From Candidatus Zixiibacteriota bacterium (lineage in GTDB: Bacteria > SM23-81), in the NCBI GenBank assembly GCA_030628225.1, contig DAOVRJ010000138.1, forward strand, positions 1 through 6,704: 6,704 nt of DNA, given 5' to 3'. Positions within the stretch are counted from its first letter, which is position 1; each line of letters begins with the position of its first letter. Below the pieces are notes generated by a model. That model was given only the letters and a program-made list of their open reading frames with translations. It had not been told where the DNA came from and searched no databases. This document shows positions 1,066 to 6,704 of the stretch, piece by piece. The position numbers and the translations under genes are program-made.

Positions 1066-1208
1066 CTTTCACCTTCCTTTCCAGAGAATATAAACCTCCG
1101 GCTCTGAAAACTCTCTGGCAGAACCGGATAAGTGATCAGATGCAAAATCTGGACCTCTCACCTCCTTTCAACCCTGTTGAGTTCCTAGCAACGATAATGC
1201 CAGAAAAT
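1066..1208 (-). other. 5' untranslated stretch between the attenuator hairpin and the gene
   Basis: About 140 nt lie between the T-tract of the leader hairpin and the start at 1065. Patches resemble the equivalent stretch before the 4719 gene, but far more loosely than the leader upstream of the hairpin does. A perfect Shine-Dalgarno-like AAAGGAGGTGA sits at 1168-1158 with no ATG or GTG at a usable distance. The proper ribosome site (AAGGAAGGTG) is at about 1079-1070. I see no confident gene here. Confidence 0.6.
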
Positions 1209-1240
1209 AAAAAATCACCAGGCGATAGTAACCTGGTGAT
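1209..1240 (-). terminator. Intrinsic terminator in the 5' leader (attenuator), copy A
   Basis: On the minus strand ATCACCAGG (1240-1232), a 9-nt loop and CCTGGTGAT (1222-1214) form a perfect 9-bp stem, followed directly by a run of T residues and then ATTTT. The stem and T-tract are identical in copy B. The T-tract lies only on the minus-strand 3' side, so it acts in the direction of the gene starting at 1065. Its position between promoter and gene makes it an attenuator, or the end of a separate small RNA. Confidence 0.8.
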
Positions 1241-1250
1241 ACCATGAACT

Positions 1251-1319
1251 TCAATGGGGATGACACGGCCCATACGGACGTCCGCAGGGCCAACTCCACA
1301 GGTAATTGCGGCCCTTCAC
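1251..1319 (-). CDS. Candidate 22-codon leader peptide, copy A
   Basis: A GTG start at 1319-1317 is preceded by GGAG (1329-1326) with a 6-nt spacer, and the ORF ends at TGA 1253-1251. The stop lies exactly 10 nt before the terminator hairpin. The ORF in copy B (4908-4976) has the same start codon, Shine-Dalgarno spacing, length, stop and distance to the hairpin. Shared residues are Met-Lys-Gly at 1-3, Tyr-Leu-Trp at 6-8, Pro11, Gly13, Pro-Tyr-Gly at 15-17 and Pro-His at 21-22 (13 of 22). The peptide is rich in Pro, Gly, Trp, Cys, Tyr and His. A ribosome near the stop would cover the 5' arm of the hairpin, so a role in attenuation is inferred. The substitutions show no third-position bias, so coding is not proven. 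Confidence 0.45.
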   Translation of the reverse strand: MKGRNYLWSWPCGRPYGPCHPH

Positions 1320-1368
1320 TCTTGGCTCCGGGTTTGTGCTAATGGGTCAAAAAAACCTCTTATTCTAT

Positions 1369-1386
1369 CATATAACCCATATAACC
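1369..1386. repeat. Tandem 9-bp direct repeat at the predicted transcription start
   Basis: CATATAACC is repeated twice head to tail (1369-1377 and 1378-1386). On the minus strand this gives GGTTATATG twice just after the -10 box, overlapping the expected start site. Copy B has only one related unit (GGTTATGTG), so this is a local expansion in copy A. Confidence 0.75.
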
Positions 1387-1415
1387 ATTTTAGCAGAGAG
1401 AACCCTCTTTGTCAA
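1387..1415 (-). promoter_or_regulatory. Sigma70-type promoter, copy A
   Basis: TTGACA (1415-1410) is followed by a 17-bp spacer and TAAAAT (1392-1387). An A-tract directly upstream of the -35 box resembles an UP element. A 6-bp inverted repeat (TTGAGA 1424-1429 / TCTCAA 1443-1448) lies just upstream and could be an operator, though it is absent from copy B. The predicted transcription start is about 1380, driving the gene that begins at 1065. The same boxes and spacing occur in copy B at 5034-5062. Confidence 0.8.
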
Positions 1416-1510: not shown

Positions 1511-1547
1511 AAAAAGAGCCGCCCAGACCCGCAGGTCCCGGCGGCTC
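1511..1547 (-). terminator. Intrinsic terminator after the triple-domain protease gene
   Basis: On the minus strand GAGCCGCC (1547-1540) pairs with GGCGGCTC (1523-1516). An inner GACC/GGTC pairing extends the hairpin, and TTTTT (1515-1511) follows. It begins 22 nt after the stop codon at 1570, so the gene ends its transcript here and is not co-transcribed with the paralogue downstream. Confidence 0.92.
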
Positions 1548-1569: not shown

Positions 1570-4500
1570 TTACCGACGCTTGATCTCAGGGCTTTCCTGC
1601 ACACTTTTCTTCTTGGCGTTGATAAGGTCTCTGTCGAACTCGCCCACACATCGCGAGTTATCAGACTCAAAGCTGCCTACACGTGCGTTCACATAGTAGT
1701 AGTAGTTGACGCTGGAGTCGCCGGCCACGTTAACGTCCAGGTAAGTGGTATCTGTGGTGTTGTCATACTCCTTGGTCGGACCGACCGCGAAATCAGGCAC
1801 GGTGTCGCGGTATACCACATAAGAGTCGACCGTGATCGGCCTGCCTGCGGTGTCTGTGGTCACCGGGGACCAGATGAGCCGGATGTCTTTGGTGAAGGGC
1901 AGCACAGTGCCAAAGGCGTTGTAAATCTCCAGATTCTTTACTGCCTCCGGTGGGCCTGTGGGTGAGATCAACACCGCACCCTCGATCTCGGTGTAAAGAG
2001 GGCCACCTTGCCAGTTGTCCTCATATATCTTCAGGTGATCCGGGCAATTCTCCAGCTGGTGACGGGGAGCCACTGTGGTGCCGGGATACCAGGGAAGCCC
2101 CCAGTAACCACCCGGGCTGGGCGAGGGAGCCACCAGGTACACATCGTGGGAGACCAAAGCCGCGTTGTTGTGCCACTTGGGGTCAAAATACGGATAGTCC
2201 GTGGGCTGCTGGTCAAAATCCGGATCGCTGAACATGATCAGCATGCTGTCGGAGTTAACACCGGCACAGGTCACGTAATGTCCGCCGACGCGATGCCACT
2301 GCTCAGGGACATACTCCTCCCAGAATCCTAACAGCAGGATTACATCCTGGCAGCGTTCGATCTCCTGCTCGATAATGGCGAAGAACTCGGGATCACGAGT
2401 GCTGTCGACCAGTGTGTGTTCGTAGAAGATATCGTCCAGGCCCTTGTTCATCAACCACTGCTCGATGCCCATCTGCATATCATCGATGTCGGTTCCCCAC
2501 ACGGGATCGGTTAACATGTAATTCTGGGCCAGATCCTCGATGAAGTACTGGACGTTGTCATAGGCACCAGGCCAGGGTCCTTCCAGATCGTAAGAGTGGT
2601 CGTCATAGCCGGGAATGTAGGCTTCGACCAGATTGAAGTCGTCCTGCACAAAAGGCGGCGGCGGCAGGCCCGGAGCATTCAACCACTGGTACTTGGAGTC
2701 GAACCACCACAGACAATTGGCCACGGCCGTCGGGCCGCAGTAGCCGGTCCAGCCGTGTTGATTTTGGTCAAAATCCGGCATCCCGTCGGGGGCATAGTCG
2801 GGATACTCTCCCTTGAGGTGCCAACCCTCGCCGATGGGCGAGATGGCCACGGCGTACTCGATCTCGGTGTGCACATCTAACTCGGGAACATACCCCTCCT
2901 GGTACTCCTTGAGCTCCGGCGGGAAATTGGCTCCCTGAAGCTTGTGCATAATCTCATTGTTGCGAGGATAATCCGGAATAGACCAAGGGCCGCCCGGCGA
3001 TAGGTAATCGTAGACGACCGCATAATAATCGTGAGAGATGTTGCCGGCGTCGTTGTGGACCTCAGGGGCATGCCCGCCATGAGGGTGCGGTATGAGGATC
3101 CCGTCCCGGACTCGACCCGGCCAACCCTGCTCGGCCATATCGTAGAAGGGATCGCTGATGGCCAAGGTCAGCTGCGCTGAGTTGACCCCGGCGCAGGTCA
3201 CCCAGTGACCGCCCACCCGGTGCCAGTCGAAATCCGTCGGCGTACCCCAGTTCTGCCAGAAACCCAGGAGTAGAATCACATCCTGACTGCGCTCGATCTC
3301 ATCCTCGATCCAGTAGAAGTCCGGGGCCTTCTTGGTATGTTTATAGAAGATGGTATCCGTTTCTGTCTCTAACAACCACTCGGCGATGGCTGCCTCCATC
3401 TCGAAAACATTGGTGCCCACGCTCCCATCCCCCGTGCGTCGGCCGTCGGTGTTCATGCGCCAGGCCAGATCATCCACCAGAGGCATCACGTTGAGGGTGT
3501 CGTGATCGTCCCAAGCTCCGTATTCCATCACCAGTGGAAAATCGTCTCTGACGGTTGGCGGTGGTATGGAATCGGGATCGATAAGATACTGGTACTTGGA
3601 GTCAAACCACCACAGGCAGTTGGCCAGGGCCACCGGCCCGCAATAGCTCCACTTCCCGCTTCCCGGAGGATTGTCCCACATATCCTGCTTCTGGTCGAAG
3701 TCGGGCATGCCGCTGGGCGCGTAGTCGTCATAGTCGGGCTTGAAGTACATCGTGTCTTCCTCGATGGGGCAGATGATCACCGTGGCTTCCACCTCGGTAT
3801 GGTGGCTTTGTTTTTCGTCGGGGGGCCTCTCGGCCTGATACTTCTCGAACCTCTTGGGCACGTTAAGGCTAAAGAAATTCACGGCTTTCTCGACCGGATA
3901 GCCCTGCAACGACCATAACCCGCCAGGGCTGGGGGAACACAAGTTCACAGTGTAGTAATCATGGGATACGTTGCCGGCGTCGTCGTGCCGGATGGGATCC
4001 CCAGGGTGGGGCCAGCTGTGGGGGATGAGGAAACCACTGCCTATTCGCCCAGGGCCATCTAGCGCACAGGCCCTGTCTAGGTACGGATCGCTGATGGCGA
4101 TCTTCAGGCTCTCGGAGTTGACCCCGGCACAGGTGACGAAGTGGCCACCCGTTCGATACCACACGGTATCCGTTGCACTCCAGTACCAGAAGCCCAACAG
4201 CAAGATCACGTCCTGGCTGCGCTCGATCTCACTCTCGATGAAATAGAAATCCGGCATCCAGTAGGTGCTCTCCACCAGGGTGTTTTCCAGCCCCCTCTCG
4301 ATGAGCAGCGAGTCGATGGCCATCTGCATGGTGTCGATGTGGGTGCCCACACCGGGTTTGCATCTCATGCGAGCGGCCAGGTCCTCGACGAAAGGCCTCA
4401 CATTAGAGGTGCCGTGATCGTCCCACGGCCCGTAGGCAGTCACTAAAGGAAACCCGTCGCTGCTGTCCGGCGGCATGGTGGCGCCGGGCTCGAACTGGGA

Positions 4501-4719
4501 GTCGAACCACCACAAGCAATTGGCTAGGGCCACCGGGCCACAATAGTAATATGTTCCCGGATCGCCCCACCCGGGCCGTTTCTGGTCGAAGTCGGGCATA
4601 CCGCTTGGGGCGTAGTCGGTATAGCCAGGTTTGAAGTACCAATACGCCCATATAATATTGGCGGAAACAAAGACCAGCAGCGTGCACACAACCGCCAGGA
4701 ATAAAGCTCTTTTCTTCAT
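1570..4719 (-). CDS. Secreted protein with three tandem C39-like cysteine-peptidase domains and a C-terminal Fn3 domain
   Basis: The protein has 1049 residues. The chosen ATG at 4719 has GGGAGGTG upstream (core GGAGG at 4730-4726, 6-nt spacer); an in-frame TTG at 4740 would place this ribosome site inside the gene. Residues 1-26 are a signal peptide (MKKRALFLAVV, probable cleavage near IWA-YW). Three domains follow at ~26-318, ~324-627 and ~632-919. Each has YCGP(V/T)A..NCLWWFDS (Cys60, Cys360, Cys661), EIER(S/C)QDVILLLGFW, GGH(F/W/Y)VTCAGVNS (His193, His505, His814) and SDP (Asp211, Asp523, Asp832). This matches the Cys-His-Asp layout of papain-like/C39-like peptidases, and all three sites look intact. 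An invariant DFDQ before each Cys may supply the oxyanion Gln. Residues ~923-1027 form an Fn3-like domain ending in CVGEFDRDLINA, shared with the M14 gene upstream. Substrate is unknown; a non-proteolytic transglutaminase-like or binding role is possible. Confidence 0.9.
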   Translation of the reverse strand: MKKRALFLAVVCTLLVFVSANIIWAYWYFKPGYTDYAPSGMPDFDQKRPGWGDPGTYYYCGPVALANCLWWFDSQFEPGATMPPDSSDGFPLVTAYGPWDDHGTSNVRPFVEDLAARMRCKPGVGTHIDTMQMAIDSLLIERGLENTLVESTYWMPDFYFIESEIERSQDVILLLGFWYWSATDTVWYRTGGHFVTCAGVNSESLKIAISDPYLDRACALDGPGRIGSGFLIPHSWPHPGDPIRHDDAGNVSHDYYTVNLCSPSPGGLWSLQGYPVEKAVNFFSLNVPKRFEKYQAERPPDEKQSHHTEVEATVIICPIEEDTMYFKPDYDDYAPSGMPDFDQKQDMWDNPPGSGKWSYCGPVALANCLWWFDSKYQYLIDPDSIPPPTVRDDFPLVMEYGAWDDHDTLNVMPLVDDLAWRMNTDGRRTGDGSVGTNVFEMEAAIAEWLLETETDTIFYKHTKKAPDFYWIEDEIERSQDVILLLGFWQNWGTPTDFDWHRVGGHWVTCAGVNSAQLTLAISDPFYDMAEQGWPGRVRDGILIPHPHGGHAPEVHNDAGNISHDYYAVVYDYLSPGGPWSIPDYPRNNEIMHKLQGANFPPELKEYQEGYVPELDVHTEIEYAVAISPIGEGWHLKGEYPDYAPDGMPDFDQNQHGWTGYCGPTAVANCLWWFDSKYQWLNAPGLPPPPFVQDDFNLVEAYIPGYDDHSYDLEGPWPGAYDNVQYFIEDLAQNYMLTDPVWGTDIDDMQMGIEQWLMNKGLDDIFYEHTLVDSTRDPEFFAIIEQEIERCQDVILLLGFWEEYVPEQWHRVGGHYVTCAGVNSDSMLIMFSDPDFDQQPTDYPYFDPKWHNNAALVSHDVYLVAPSPSPGGYWGLPWYPGTTVAPRHQLENCPDHLKIYEDNWQGGPLYTEIEGAVLISPTGPPEAVKNLEIYNAFGTVLPFTKDIRLIWSPVTTDTAGRPITVDSYVVYRDTVPDFAVGPTKEYDNTTDTTYLDVNVAGDSSVNYYYYVNARVGSFESDNSRCVGEFDRDLINAKKKSVQESPEIKRR
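1639..1953 (-). other. Fn3 plus VGEFD tail segment homologous to the end of the M14 gene
   Basis: Residues ~923-1027 of the triple-domain protein align with the last ~110 residues of the M14 gene (coded at about 5168-5497). Shared elements are PPE.V..L at the start, SPVT.DTAG.P.TVD.Y, RDT..DFA, a Thr/Asp-rich turn, VN..Y.V.A, and a final VGEFD..LINA. The Fn3 identity comes from length and strand pattern. The common tail on otherwise unrelated secreted enzymes suggests a transferable export or surface-anchoring module. Confidence 0.7.
1963..4644 (-). repeat. Threefold tandem domain repeat within the protease gene
   Basis: Three in-frame units of about 290-305 codons each lie at 4644-3766, 3750-2839 and 2826-1963. 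Each runs from a (YF/L)K(P/G).Y.DYAP.GMPDFDQ block through the Cys, His and Asp motifs to a closing HTE(V/I)E..V.I(C/S)P block. Units 1 and 2 are more alike than either is to unit 3, which has a YDLEGPWPGAYDN insertion before the central helices and a shorter lead-in to its Cys. The second unit of the left-edge paralogue shares KQDMWDNP with unit 2 here, so the multi-domain form predates the gene duplication. Confidence 0.85.
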
Positions 4720-4865
4720 CCTGCACCTCCCTTTGGCCAAGAAAACGAATTTCAGACCTTAAAAACTTTCCAGCAGAGCCAGATGAAAGTGCGCAGACGG
4801 CTTTTTCCGAGGACTCATCTTCCTTCAATCCGGTCGAGCTGAAAGCAATGGTGGTGGCGCAAAAC
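4720..4865 (-). other. 5' untranslated stretch between the attenuator hairpin and the triple-domain gene
   Basis: About 145 nt separate the leader hairpin from the ATG at 4719. Weak patches match the equivalent stretch of copy A, for example around GGATTGAAGGAAGATGAG versus GGGTTGAAAGGAGGTGAG and a CTCTGC block, showing common descent with much drift. The only clear functional element is the ribosome-binding site AAAGGGAGGTG at 4734-4724. No confident gene is present. Confidence 0.6.
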
Positions 4866-4897
4866 AAAAAATCACCAGGCGATAATAACCTGGTGAT
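4866..4897 (-). terminator. Intrinsic terminator in the 5' leader (attenuator), copy B
   Basis: ATCACCAGG (4897-4889 on the minus strand), a 9-nt loop and CCTGGTGAT (4879-4871) form a perfect 9-bp stem, followed by a T run and GTTTT. The loop differs from copy A by one base, while stem and T-tract are unchanged. It lies between promoter and gene, so it must be bypassed for the protease gene to be expressed from the promoter at 5034-5062. Confidence 0.8.
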
Positions 4898-4907
4898 ACT
4901 ATAATCC

Positions 4908-4976
4908 TCAATGGGGATAATACGACCCATACGGATGCCCGCTGGGGCAGACCCAAAGATAATGGAGGCCCTTCAC
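4908..4976 (-). CDS. Candidate 22-codon leader peptide, copy B
   Basis: GTG at 4976-4974 follows GGAG (4986-4983) with a 6-nt spacer, and TGA lies at 4910-4908, exactly 10 nt before the attenuator hairpin. It matches copy A in start, length and stop and in 13 of 22 residues. This copy has four Tyr, three His, three Pro, one Trp and one Cys codon in 22. By architecture it resembles leader peptides whose translation decides whether a downstream terminator forms. Evidence for translation is limited to the start site and conserved spacing. Confidence 0.45.
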   Translation of the reverse strand: MKGLHYLWVCPSGHPYGSYYPH

Positions 4977-5033
4977 TCTCCGCTCCGGGGTTGTGCTAAT
5001 GGGTCAAAAAACCTCTTTCTCTATCACATAACC

Positions 5034-5062
5034 ATTTTAGCAGAGAGAACCATTTTTGTCAA
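5034..5062 (-). promoter_or_regulatory. Sigma70-type promoter, copy B
   Basis: TTGACA (5062-5057), a 17-bp spacer and TAAAAT (5039-5034) form a near-consensus promoter, with an A-tract just upstream of the -35 box. The predicted start is about 5027. The promoter lies after the terminator of the M14 gene and drives the gene starting at 4719. The spacer tail GGTTCTCTCTGC is identical in copy A. Confidence 0.82.
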
Positions 5063-5109: not shown

Positions 5110-5141
5110 AAAAAGGCCCTCCCAAATCTTCAAGAGGGCCT
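5110..5141 (-). terminator. Intrinsic terminator after the M14 carboxypeptidase gene
   Basis: On the minus strand AGGCCCTC (5141-5134), a 12-nt loop and GAGGGCCT (5121-5114) form an 8-bp GC-rich stem followed by TTTTATTT. It starts 26 nt after the stop at 5168 and closes this transcription unit before the promoter of the next gene. Confidence 0.9.
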
Positions 5142-5167
5142 CTATCTTTACATCAGAAATCGTTCAC

Positions 5168-6704
5168 TCACTTAGGTAGAGCATTGATCAGCTCGGCATC
5201 GAACTCCCCCACCCGGTTGGAATCGTCCGACTTGTTGCCGCCGCCGTCTACGGCTCGAACCAGGTAGAAGTGGTTGACCAATGGGTTCCCGTCGCCGGCG
5301 GTGGCGTCCACATAGGCGGTATCGGCGGCCACATCCAGGGAGTTGGCCGGGCTGGCCGCGAAGTCGTGAGCCGTATCCCGATGTATGATGTAGTAGTCAA
5401 CGGTCTCCGGGCCTCCGGCCGTGTCCACGGTCACCGGCGACCAGCTCAGATGAATGCTCCCCGTCAGGGTGGCGGTCAGATCGGCGACCGGCTCCGGCGG
5501 CACCAGGTCCGTGGAGACGGTCACATCCTCATAACAGCTCCAATCGCCCCAGCCCCGGGCGGCGTTATGCCCTTTGACGCAATAGGTGTAGTCCCCCGGC
5601 GTACGGCCGGTGATAGCGTAAAAGGTGTCGGCGATGCTGGAAGAGAGAGTGGTGGTGGTGCTGTAAGAGGCCACCGGGTGGATATCGTCCACGTAGAAGC
5701 CCTCCTCCAGGACGTACGAATCGGTGGTGTGCCGGAAGCGGAAGAAGACGGACTTGCCCTCATACTCCTCCAGGCTGTAGGCCTTGCGCACCCAACCACC
5801 CGAGGACCCGGTGAAGGTGGCCGTGGTATCGGCCAGCTTGAAGCAGCGTCCGTCGGTGGAGATCTCGGCGTAGGCCATATCCCAGTCTTCTTCGATGTCG
5901 TACCAGCACCAGAAGGTCAGAGAATCACCTGAAGATACCAGGTGTGGCTGGACGGTGGTCATGGCGTCATAGGCGGTGTGCACCCCGGAGGAGGAGCGAA
6001 AGCTATGACTCGAACTGTGGTACCGGGTTGTGCTCACCGAGAAGCCGGCCAGATCCCAGAGGCCGCCGCCGCTCTCGGCGTCGTCGGTGACCACGGACAG
6101 ACCGGTCAGCTCGTCCAACTGGTAGACATCTGCTCCAGCATCGGGGTTGGTGGGACTCCAGGAGACGGTATAATTCCCACTGGATACGGTGCTCATCGGG
6201 TCGATGACCGGGGGCATCACCCGGGGGGTGAGCAGGTTGGCCACCGAGTCGGCTATATCACACAGATAGATGGCCCCGTCGAAATTCTCTCGAACAACCT
6301 CGTCCAGATATACCTGGGAGGGATGAAAGCTGTTGCAGGCCTCCACGGTGTAGCCGATGCAATTGGTTCCCGCCACATAGTGGTGATAGCCGTAGGCCCA
6401 GTCGTCGGTATCCCCGGAGGTGGTATAGCCGATGCCGGGCGACTGGGAGGCATCATAGGTCCCACCCCCGGACATCTTGCTGATTCGCGAGGCCATCTCG
6501 GTGCCCACGTCGACGATGAGGTCGTTGTCCGGGGTCTGCTTGCTTCCGGAATAACCCCACGACCAGATGACCATCTCCGCATAGGTATGATAGGAGACGT
6601 CGATGATGAAATCGTGGGCCATAAACAGGTCGCGAACGGCCTGGATCTCCAGCTCGGAGAAGGGATACGGCCCGCAGTAGACCGACTGGTCGGGATAGTG
6701 TGTG
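5168..6704 (-). CDS. Secreted zinc carboxypeptidase (peptidase M14), C-terminal part with MAM-like and Fn3 domains (cut by the right edge)
   Basis: The frame is open to the right edge (511 residues visible, TGA at 5170-5168). Upstream of an internal Met at 6622 it still reads YCGPYPFSELEIQAVRDL, typical M14 sequence, so that Met is not the start. Numbering from the edge, IDVSYHTYAE holds the second zinc-ligand His39 and GYTVEAC the catalytic Glu121; the HxxE zinc motif lies outside the window. After the peptidase (to ~150) comes an Fn3-like sequence interrupted by an immune-inhibitor-A/MAM-like jelly-roll at ~207-342 (DDAESG, SHSFRSSS, GDSLTFWCWYDIEEDWDMAYAEISTDG in pieces, TGSSGGWV, EGFYVDDIHP). 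A second Fn3 (~401-505) ends in NRVGEFDAELINALPK. The family removes C-terminal residues from peptides, and the protein is probably extracellular. The tail matches that of the triple-domain gene downstream. Confidence 0.9.
   Translation of the reverse strand, partial: THYPDQSVYCGPYPFSELEIQAVRDLFMAHDFIIDVSYHTYAEMVIWSWGYSGSKQTPDNDLIVDVGTEMASRISKMSGGGTYDASQSPGIGYTTSGDTDDWAYGYHHYVAGTNCIGYTVEACNSFHPSQVYLDEVVRENFDGAIYLCDIADSVANLLTPRVMPPVIDPMSTVSSGNYTVSWSPTNPDAGADVYQLDELTGLSVVTDDAESGGGLWDLAGFSVSTTRYHSSSHSFRSSSGVHTAYDAMTTVQPHLVSSGDSLTFWCWYDIEEDWDMAYAEISTDGRCFKLADTTATFTGSSGGWVRKAYSLEEYEGKSVFFRFRHTTDSYVLEEGFYVDDIHPVASYSTTTTLSSSIADTFYAITGRTPGDYTYCVKGHNAARGWGDWSCYEDVTVSTDLVPPEPVADLTATLTGSIHLSWSPVTVDTAGGPETVDYYIIHRDTAHDFAASPANSLDVAADTAYVDATAGDGNPLVNHFYLVRAVDGGGNKSDDSNRVGEFDAELINALPK

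Follow-up and report, generated by a model that had tools for sequence, protein, structure and literature searches.

A conserved promoter–leader–terminator cassette with the layout of a transcription attenuator precedes two secreted C39-like protein genes in a Candidatus Zixiibacteriota bacterium

Two tandem genes of a Candidatus Zixiibacteriota bacterium encode secreted three-repeat C39-like proteins, and each is preceded by a copy of the same cassette, which consists of a promoter, a leader and an intrinsic terminator. The leader is genuine, constrained and lineage-specific, and it has the layout of an attenuator. On balance, we read the cassette as most likely a transcription attenuator upstream of the secreted C39-like gene.

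Organization of the locus

The window analyzed here is the entire contig C300 (6704 bases) from a 2.34-Mb metagenome assembly. All features of interest are located on its minus strand, where the 5′ to 3′ order is the M14 carboxypeptidase gene, a terminator, cassette B (5062–4866), gene B, a terminator, cassette A (1415–1209) and gene A (Table 1). The start of gene B is at 4719 and that of gene A at 1065/1062. Positions 1–119 of the window overlap positions 4035–4153 of contig C3 (119 bp at 98.3%), which makes the contigs joinable and completes gene A. Since C3 holds the remainder of gene A, this gene has three repeats like gene B. By inspection, the C-terminal domain of gene B is fibronectin-III-like, and a TPR-repeat protein gene lies beyond gene A on C3. 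Like the C39 proteins, the M14 carboxypeptidase has VGEFD..LINA at its C-terminal end. This suggests that secreted proteins of the organism have a C-terminal domain in common, perhaps one of fibronectin-III type or with a role in sorting.

Table 1. Features of the window (contig C300), with orphan Shine-Dalgarno examples from other contigs of the genome
Feature	Position	Strand	Evidence
M14 carboxypeptidase gene	5168..6703	-	Pfam PF00246
Terminator closing the upstream M14 carboxypeptidase gene	5112..5143	-	
Promoter, cassette B, TTGACA-17-TAAAAT with TG before the −10	5034..5062	-	exact motif
Leader RNA B, from the inferred transcription start through the T tract, ~162 nt	4866..5027	-	82% identity to leader A
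Intrinsic terminator B, 10 pairs, loop of 7, TTTTTGTTTT	4871..4897	-	26/27 identical to A
Post-terminator 5′ UTR of gene B, ~145 nt, GGGAGGTG at end before ATG	4720..4865	-	63% identity to A
Gene B: three C39-like repeats between a signal peptide and a C-terminal domain	1570..4719	-	
Terminator closing gene B, parting the two units	1516..1547	-	
Promoter, cassette A	1387..1415	-	
Leader RNA A, from the inferred transcription start through the T tract, ~171 nt	1209..1380	-	
Intrinsic terminator A	1214..1240	-	
Post-terminator 5′ UTR of gene A	1066..1208	-	
Orphan Shine-Dalgarno AAAGGAGGTGA, ~95 nt 5′ of the gene A start codon	1158..1168	-	sequence
Gene A, 5′ part (rest on contig C3)	1..1065	-	contig overlap and frame on C3
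Orphan Shine-Dalgarno examples, own genome	L163:5466-6068, L165:4561-5731, L176:1187-2533, L196:563-2272, L209:10002-11118		

The exact promoter motif TTGACA-N17-TAAAAT is present in both cassettes, and the window contains no third (0.01 expected from shuffles). The transcription start was inferred about 7 nt past the −10 element, and leader length was counted from there to the T tract. Leader A carries a 9-nt tandem insertion near its start. An earlier reading of the sequence alone had proposed that one and the same module precedes both genes. This was borne out: in both copies the promoter is followed by a leader of 160–170 nt, a terminator and about 145 nt up to the start codon. The hairpin and T tract noticed there after each leader form an intrinsic terminator with a 10-pair stem and a 7-nt loop, nearly identical in the two copies. 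An intrinsic terminator between the promoter and the start codon of the regulated gene is one of the marks of an attenuator, and it is found in both cassettes. The upstream genes close with terminators of their own, so the leader terminator is not the end of an upstream operon. No promoter-like site was found between the terminator and the start codon.

The downstream genes were previously taken to encode secreted proteases, and the predictions agree with this to the extent that the products are secreted proteins with a predicted C39/papain fold. Gene B gave one match above cut-off to Pfam PF13529 (Peptidase_C39_2). Among 26 homologues His193 is invariant, while Cys60 and Asp211 are nearly invariant. 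Compared with solved structures, the AlphaFold model of the first repeat of gene B (pLDDT 87.9) has a C39-like peptidase (3erv) and staphopains among its best matches. Together, these results support a papain-type fold in which Cys, His and Asp occupy the positions expected of the family, and the gene products are presumably peptidases. The family is found mainly in Zixibacteria, Chloroflexota and archaea.

Conservation of the cassette

The two copies are identical at 27/29 positions of the promoter, 112/136 positions of the leader (82%) and 26/27 positions of the terminator, and the leader holds blocks of 8–20 identical bases. Two controls were available for comparison: the UTR behind the terminator is identical at 90/143 positions (63%), and in the coding sequences of the two paralogues 62/101 four-fold degenerate sites agree (61%). 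The leader exceeds both in Fisher tests (p=3e-4 against the UTR, p=4e-4 against the four-fold sites), and when the cassette as a whole was compared with the UTR the test gave p=1.3e-6. In 40-nt windows the identity is 0.68–0.93 from the promoter to the terminator and 0.57–0.65 past it. The constraint therefore spans the −35 element to the T tract and falls off at the terminator. Leader identity lies above that of the UTR and the four-fold sites, and so is not accounted for by common ancestry with neutral divergence at the local rate. These figures uphold the earlier claims of stronger conservation in the leader than in the ~145 nt following it, and of common descent alone being insufficient. 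The natural reading of the aligned copies is that the cassette is under selection.

Sites of the same layout

We scanned 1.14 Mb of the genome of the organism (~49%) for a promoter followed within 50–300 nt by an intrinsic terminator and then an ORF. With thresholds of our own choosing and in small numbers, seven sites were found beyond the two cassettes, four of which are known RNAs. Terminators are strong at two of three tRNA genes, at an FMN riboswitch and in the leader of a C25 peptidase gene; they are weak at the remaining tRNA gene and at two matches that have no explanation. The FMN riboswitch (L136:3232-3367, RF00050, 103 bits) lies with its terminator 5′ of a RibD-like gene. It shares with the cassettes the succession of TTGACA promoter, leader, intrinsic terminator and gene, but is a known structured aptamer and serves a vitamin gene. 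The C25 site (L257:1261-1380) precedes a gene for a gingipain-type secreted peptidase (Pfam PF01364). Its promoter, TTGACA-17-TAGAAT, leads into 82 nt of leader containing a strong hairpin, and an intrinsic terminator follows. Searches detected no sequence similarity between this site and the cassette. Two families of secreted cysteine peptidases, C39-like and C25, thus have the promoter–terminator–gene layout in common. As this layout marks transcribed RNA elements in the genome, a terminated leader RNA is likely at the cassettes as well, and the cassette probably makes one. A strong promoter followed by a terminator and a gene therefore appears to be a cheap and fairly specific finder of RNA elements in this genome.

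The one C39 homologue from the same phylum has, at L042:6173-6330, TTGACA-17-TATATT, then about 90–120 nt and a strong terminator, both located in a divergent intergenic region ~340 nt 5′ of the C39 gene. Direct alignment of the cassette leader to this leader gave no convincing homology, and the sequences are unrelated. An orphan AAAGGAGGTGA is present past the terminator. In other C39 homologues promoter-like sites are often located 130–200 nt upstream with no terminator in between, and in ~45 such homologues scanned no terminator was found between promoter and gene.

The tRNA genes among these sites bring up the next most likely explanation, namely that the cassette is a stand-alone gene for a trans-acting small RNA, present in two copies, and that the C39 gene is read by leakage or from an undetected promoter. 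The cassette has what such a gene would need, that is its own promoter, an intrinsic terminator and a conserved transcribed body, and it is bordered by the promoter and the terminator. In E. coli, promoter-proximal transcript ends occur in long 5′ UTRs and some of the products are small RNAs, including documented trans-acting ones (PMC7815308). Against this, both copies accompany the C39-like gene, none was found elsewhere in the genome, and no promoter-like site is present past the terminator. We regard this explanation as unlikely, although it deserves the most attention after attenuation.

Search for further copies

BLASTN with the cassette against the genome of the organism and 59 others returned only the two known copies, and it gave no copy in plasmid and phage collections. 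A degenerate DNA pattern revealed no further copy in viral and genome contigs. A covariance model built from the two leaders, which diverged relatives will escape, found only the two known copies in 98 genomes including that of the organism, and no further one at 81 homologue loci, in 39 genomes with C39 homologues or in the phylum. Two weak matches of the model (L068, E=6; G017, E=1) look like chance, and three motif look-alikes (L058, L061, L120) appear to fall within coding sequence. The similar leaders that the sequence-only reading proposed to seek in related genomes were thus found in none of the genomes, homologue loci, plasmids or phages searched, and such an absence is the first half of the refuting condition which that reading had set for itself.

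The presence of just two adjacent copies in one genome would fit a third, non-regulatory explanation, in which a constitutive weak terminator was kept, or homogenized by gene conversion, after a tandem duplication. Long leaders behind TTGACA promoters are also common for signal-peptide genes of this genome. Gene conversion, however, would need a tract that stops at the functional borders, with 61–63% identity downstream and in the coding region. We consider this explanation improbable, and attenuation is still preferred.

In the same genome, TTGACA-17-TARAATGG together with an A/T-rich start region and GGG recurs before many secreted-protein genes. This recurrence suggests a shared promoter class of secreted-protein genes. 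A perfect Shine-Dalgarno sequence, AAGGAGGTGR, with no start codon following it, is likewise frequent in signal-peptide genes with long 5′ UTRs, typically 70–120 nt 5′ of the true start. The 176 long-UTR signal-peptide genes contained 9 such sites and the 317 other genes 1, compared with 0 and 4, respectively, on the reverse strand. The orphan site in the UTR of gene A belongs to this class, and its counterpart in gene B is degenerate. These sites resemble STAB-SD, reportedly an mRNA stabilizer of Bacillus described by Agaisse and Lereclus in 1996.

Nature of the leader RNA

The sequence-only reading had offered the leader as a candidate new attenuator or riboswitch, the latter taken here as a ligand-sensing riboswitch of a new class. 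Its statement that the leader belongs to no recognized riboswitch class holds, as the comparison with Rfam 15 at the gathering threshold and at E<=10 gave nothing. The size of the leader is that of an aptamer, an intrinsic terminator and identical blocks of 8–20 bases are present, and the invariant CCCAU (5′), AUGGG (middle) and CCCCAU (3′) allow two mutually exclusive pairings. The folding results do not point to an aptamer. Folded singly together with their terminators, the leaders do somewhat better than shuffled sequences (z about -2.2 and -2.4); without the terminators they do not (z -0.96 and +0.24), and neither does the two-copy consensus fold (z +0.3 to +0.6 against column shuffles). 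The minimum-energy folds of the two leaders differ, and enforcing the 5′ CCCAU:AUGGG helix costs 4.6 kcal/mol in copy A. The compensating changes that had been proposed as a check were not seen: between the two copies, a comparison of low power, none of the paired positions shows two-sided compensation. Two sequences and pseudoknot-free folding thus gave no conserved structured aptamer, either by covariation or by fold stability, and the leader did not recur before related genes of other species in the genomes searched. Riboswitch classes are usually widespread. With the low power of a two-sequence comparison and a folding model that leaves out pseudoknots, a riboswitch is unsupported rather than disproved; we rank it last, as a very unlikely reading, and the label should be dropped on present evidence.

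Other identities of the leader were also considered. A tRNA or tmRNA was rejected after search. A leader peptide was rejected as well: none of the six frames has a coding signature, the changes between the copies are spread over all codon positions, and most changed codons are nonsynonymous.

Of the attenuation architecture claimed earlier, the intrinsic terminator before the gene stands, whereas a conserved antiterminator was not found. The 5′ arm of the terminator can pair with GUGAU at the 5′ end of the leader in copy B but not in copy A, and the search revealed no antiterminator common to both. Conserved blocks with no common fold would suit a leader whose sequence is recognized by a partner, either protein or RNA, no less well than they would suit an aptamer for a ligand.

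Proposed mechanism and comparison with known systems

We propose attenuation as the most likely function of the cassette. Each C39-like gene would form its own unit, composed of the promoter, a leader of ~165 nt, the intrinsic terminator, a UTR of ~145 nt, the gene and a closing terminator. Most transcripts from the TTGACA/TAAAAT promoter would stop at the leader terminator. Read-through would lead to production of the secreted protein, and its extent might be set by a factor recognizing the conserved leader sequence. The cassette would then probably act as an on/off brake on the protease gene. The sequence itself shows the anatomy, the constraint, the terminator signature and the lack of a second promoter-like site before the gene; we infer that termination occurs and depends on conditions, with the conserved leader blocks as the sensor. 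Weighing against attenuation are the lack of a conserved alternative structure to switch the terminator, the failure of the searches to find a copy beyond this locus, and the ~45 C39 homologues with no terminator between promoter and gene.

Regulation of a secreted protease by an RNA in the 5′ UTR is known from ppep-1 (zmp1) of C. difficile, which is controlled by a c-di-GMP-I riboswitch (PMC11477304). The position of an RNA before a secreted protease gene is similar; however, the cassette matches no Rfam c-di-GMP model, and ppep-1 encodes a metalloprotease, in contrast to the C39 fold here. The 5′ UTR of rpfB in M. tuberculosis contains an experimentally tested RNA switch or attenuator that is transcriptional, lineage-restricted and orphan and precedes the gene of a secreted wall enzyme (PMC6009663). 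It resembles the cassette as a lineage-restricted RNA ahead of a secreted-enzyme gene, a comparison by layout that implies no sequence link. Many of the premature transcript ends in E. coli 5′ UTRs are Rho-dependent (PMC7815308), whereas the terminator here is intrinsic, and the RNAs derived from those UTRs have no sequence relation to the cassette. There is a slim chance that the cassette is the first known member of a new class of cis-acting RNA sensors that control secreted cysteine proteases by attenuation in a sparsely sampled phylum, with the C25 leader and the L042 element as diverged or analogous members.

If read-through is conditional, this uncultured bacterium would control the release of its large multi-repeat secreted proteases during transcript elongation, and the neighboring cassettes could readily be compared with each other within one locus.
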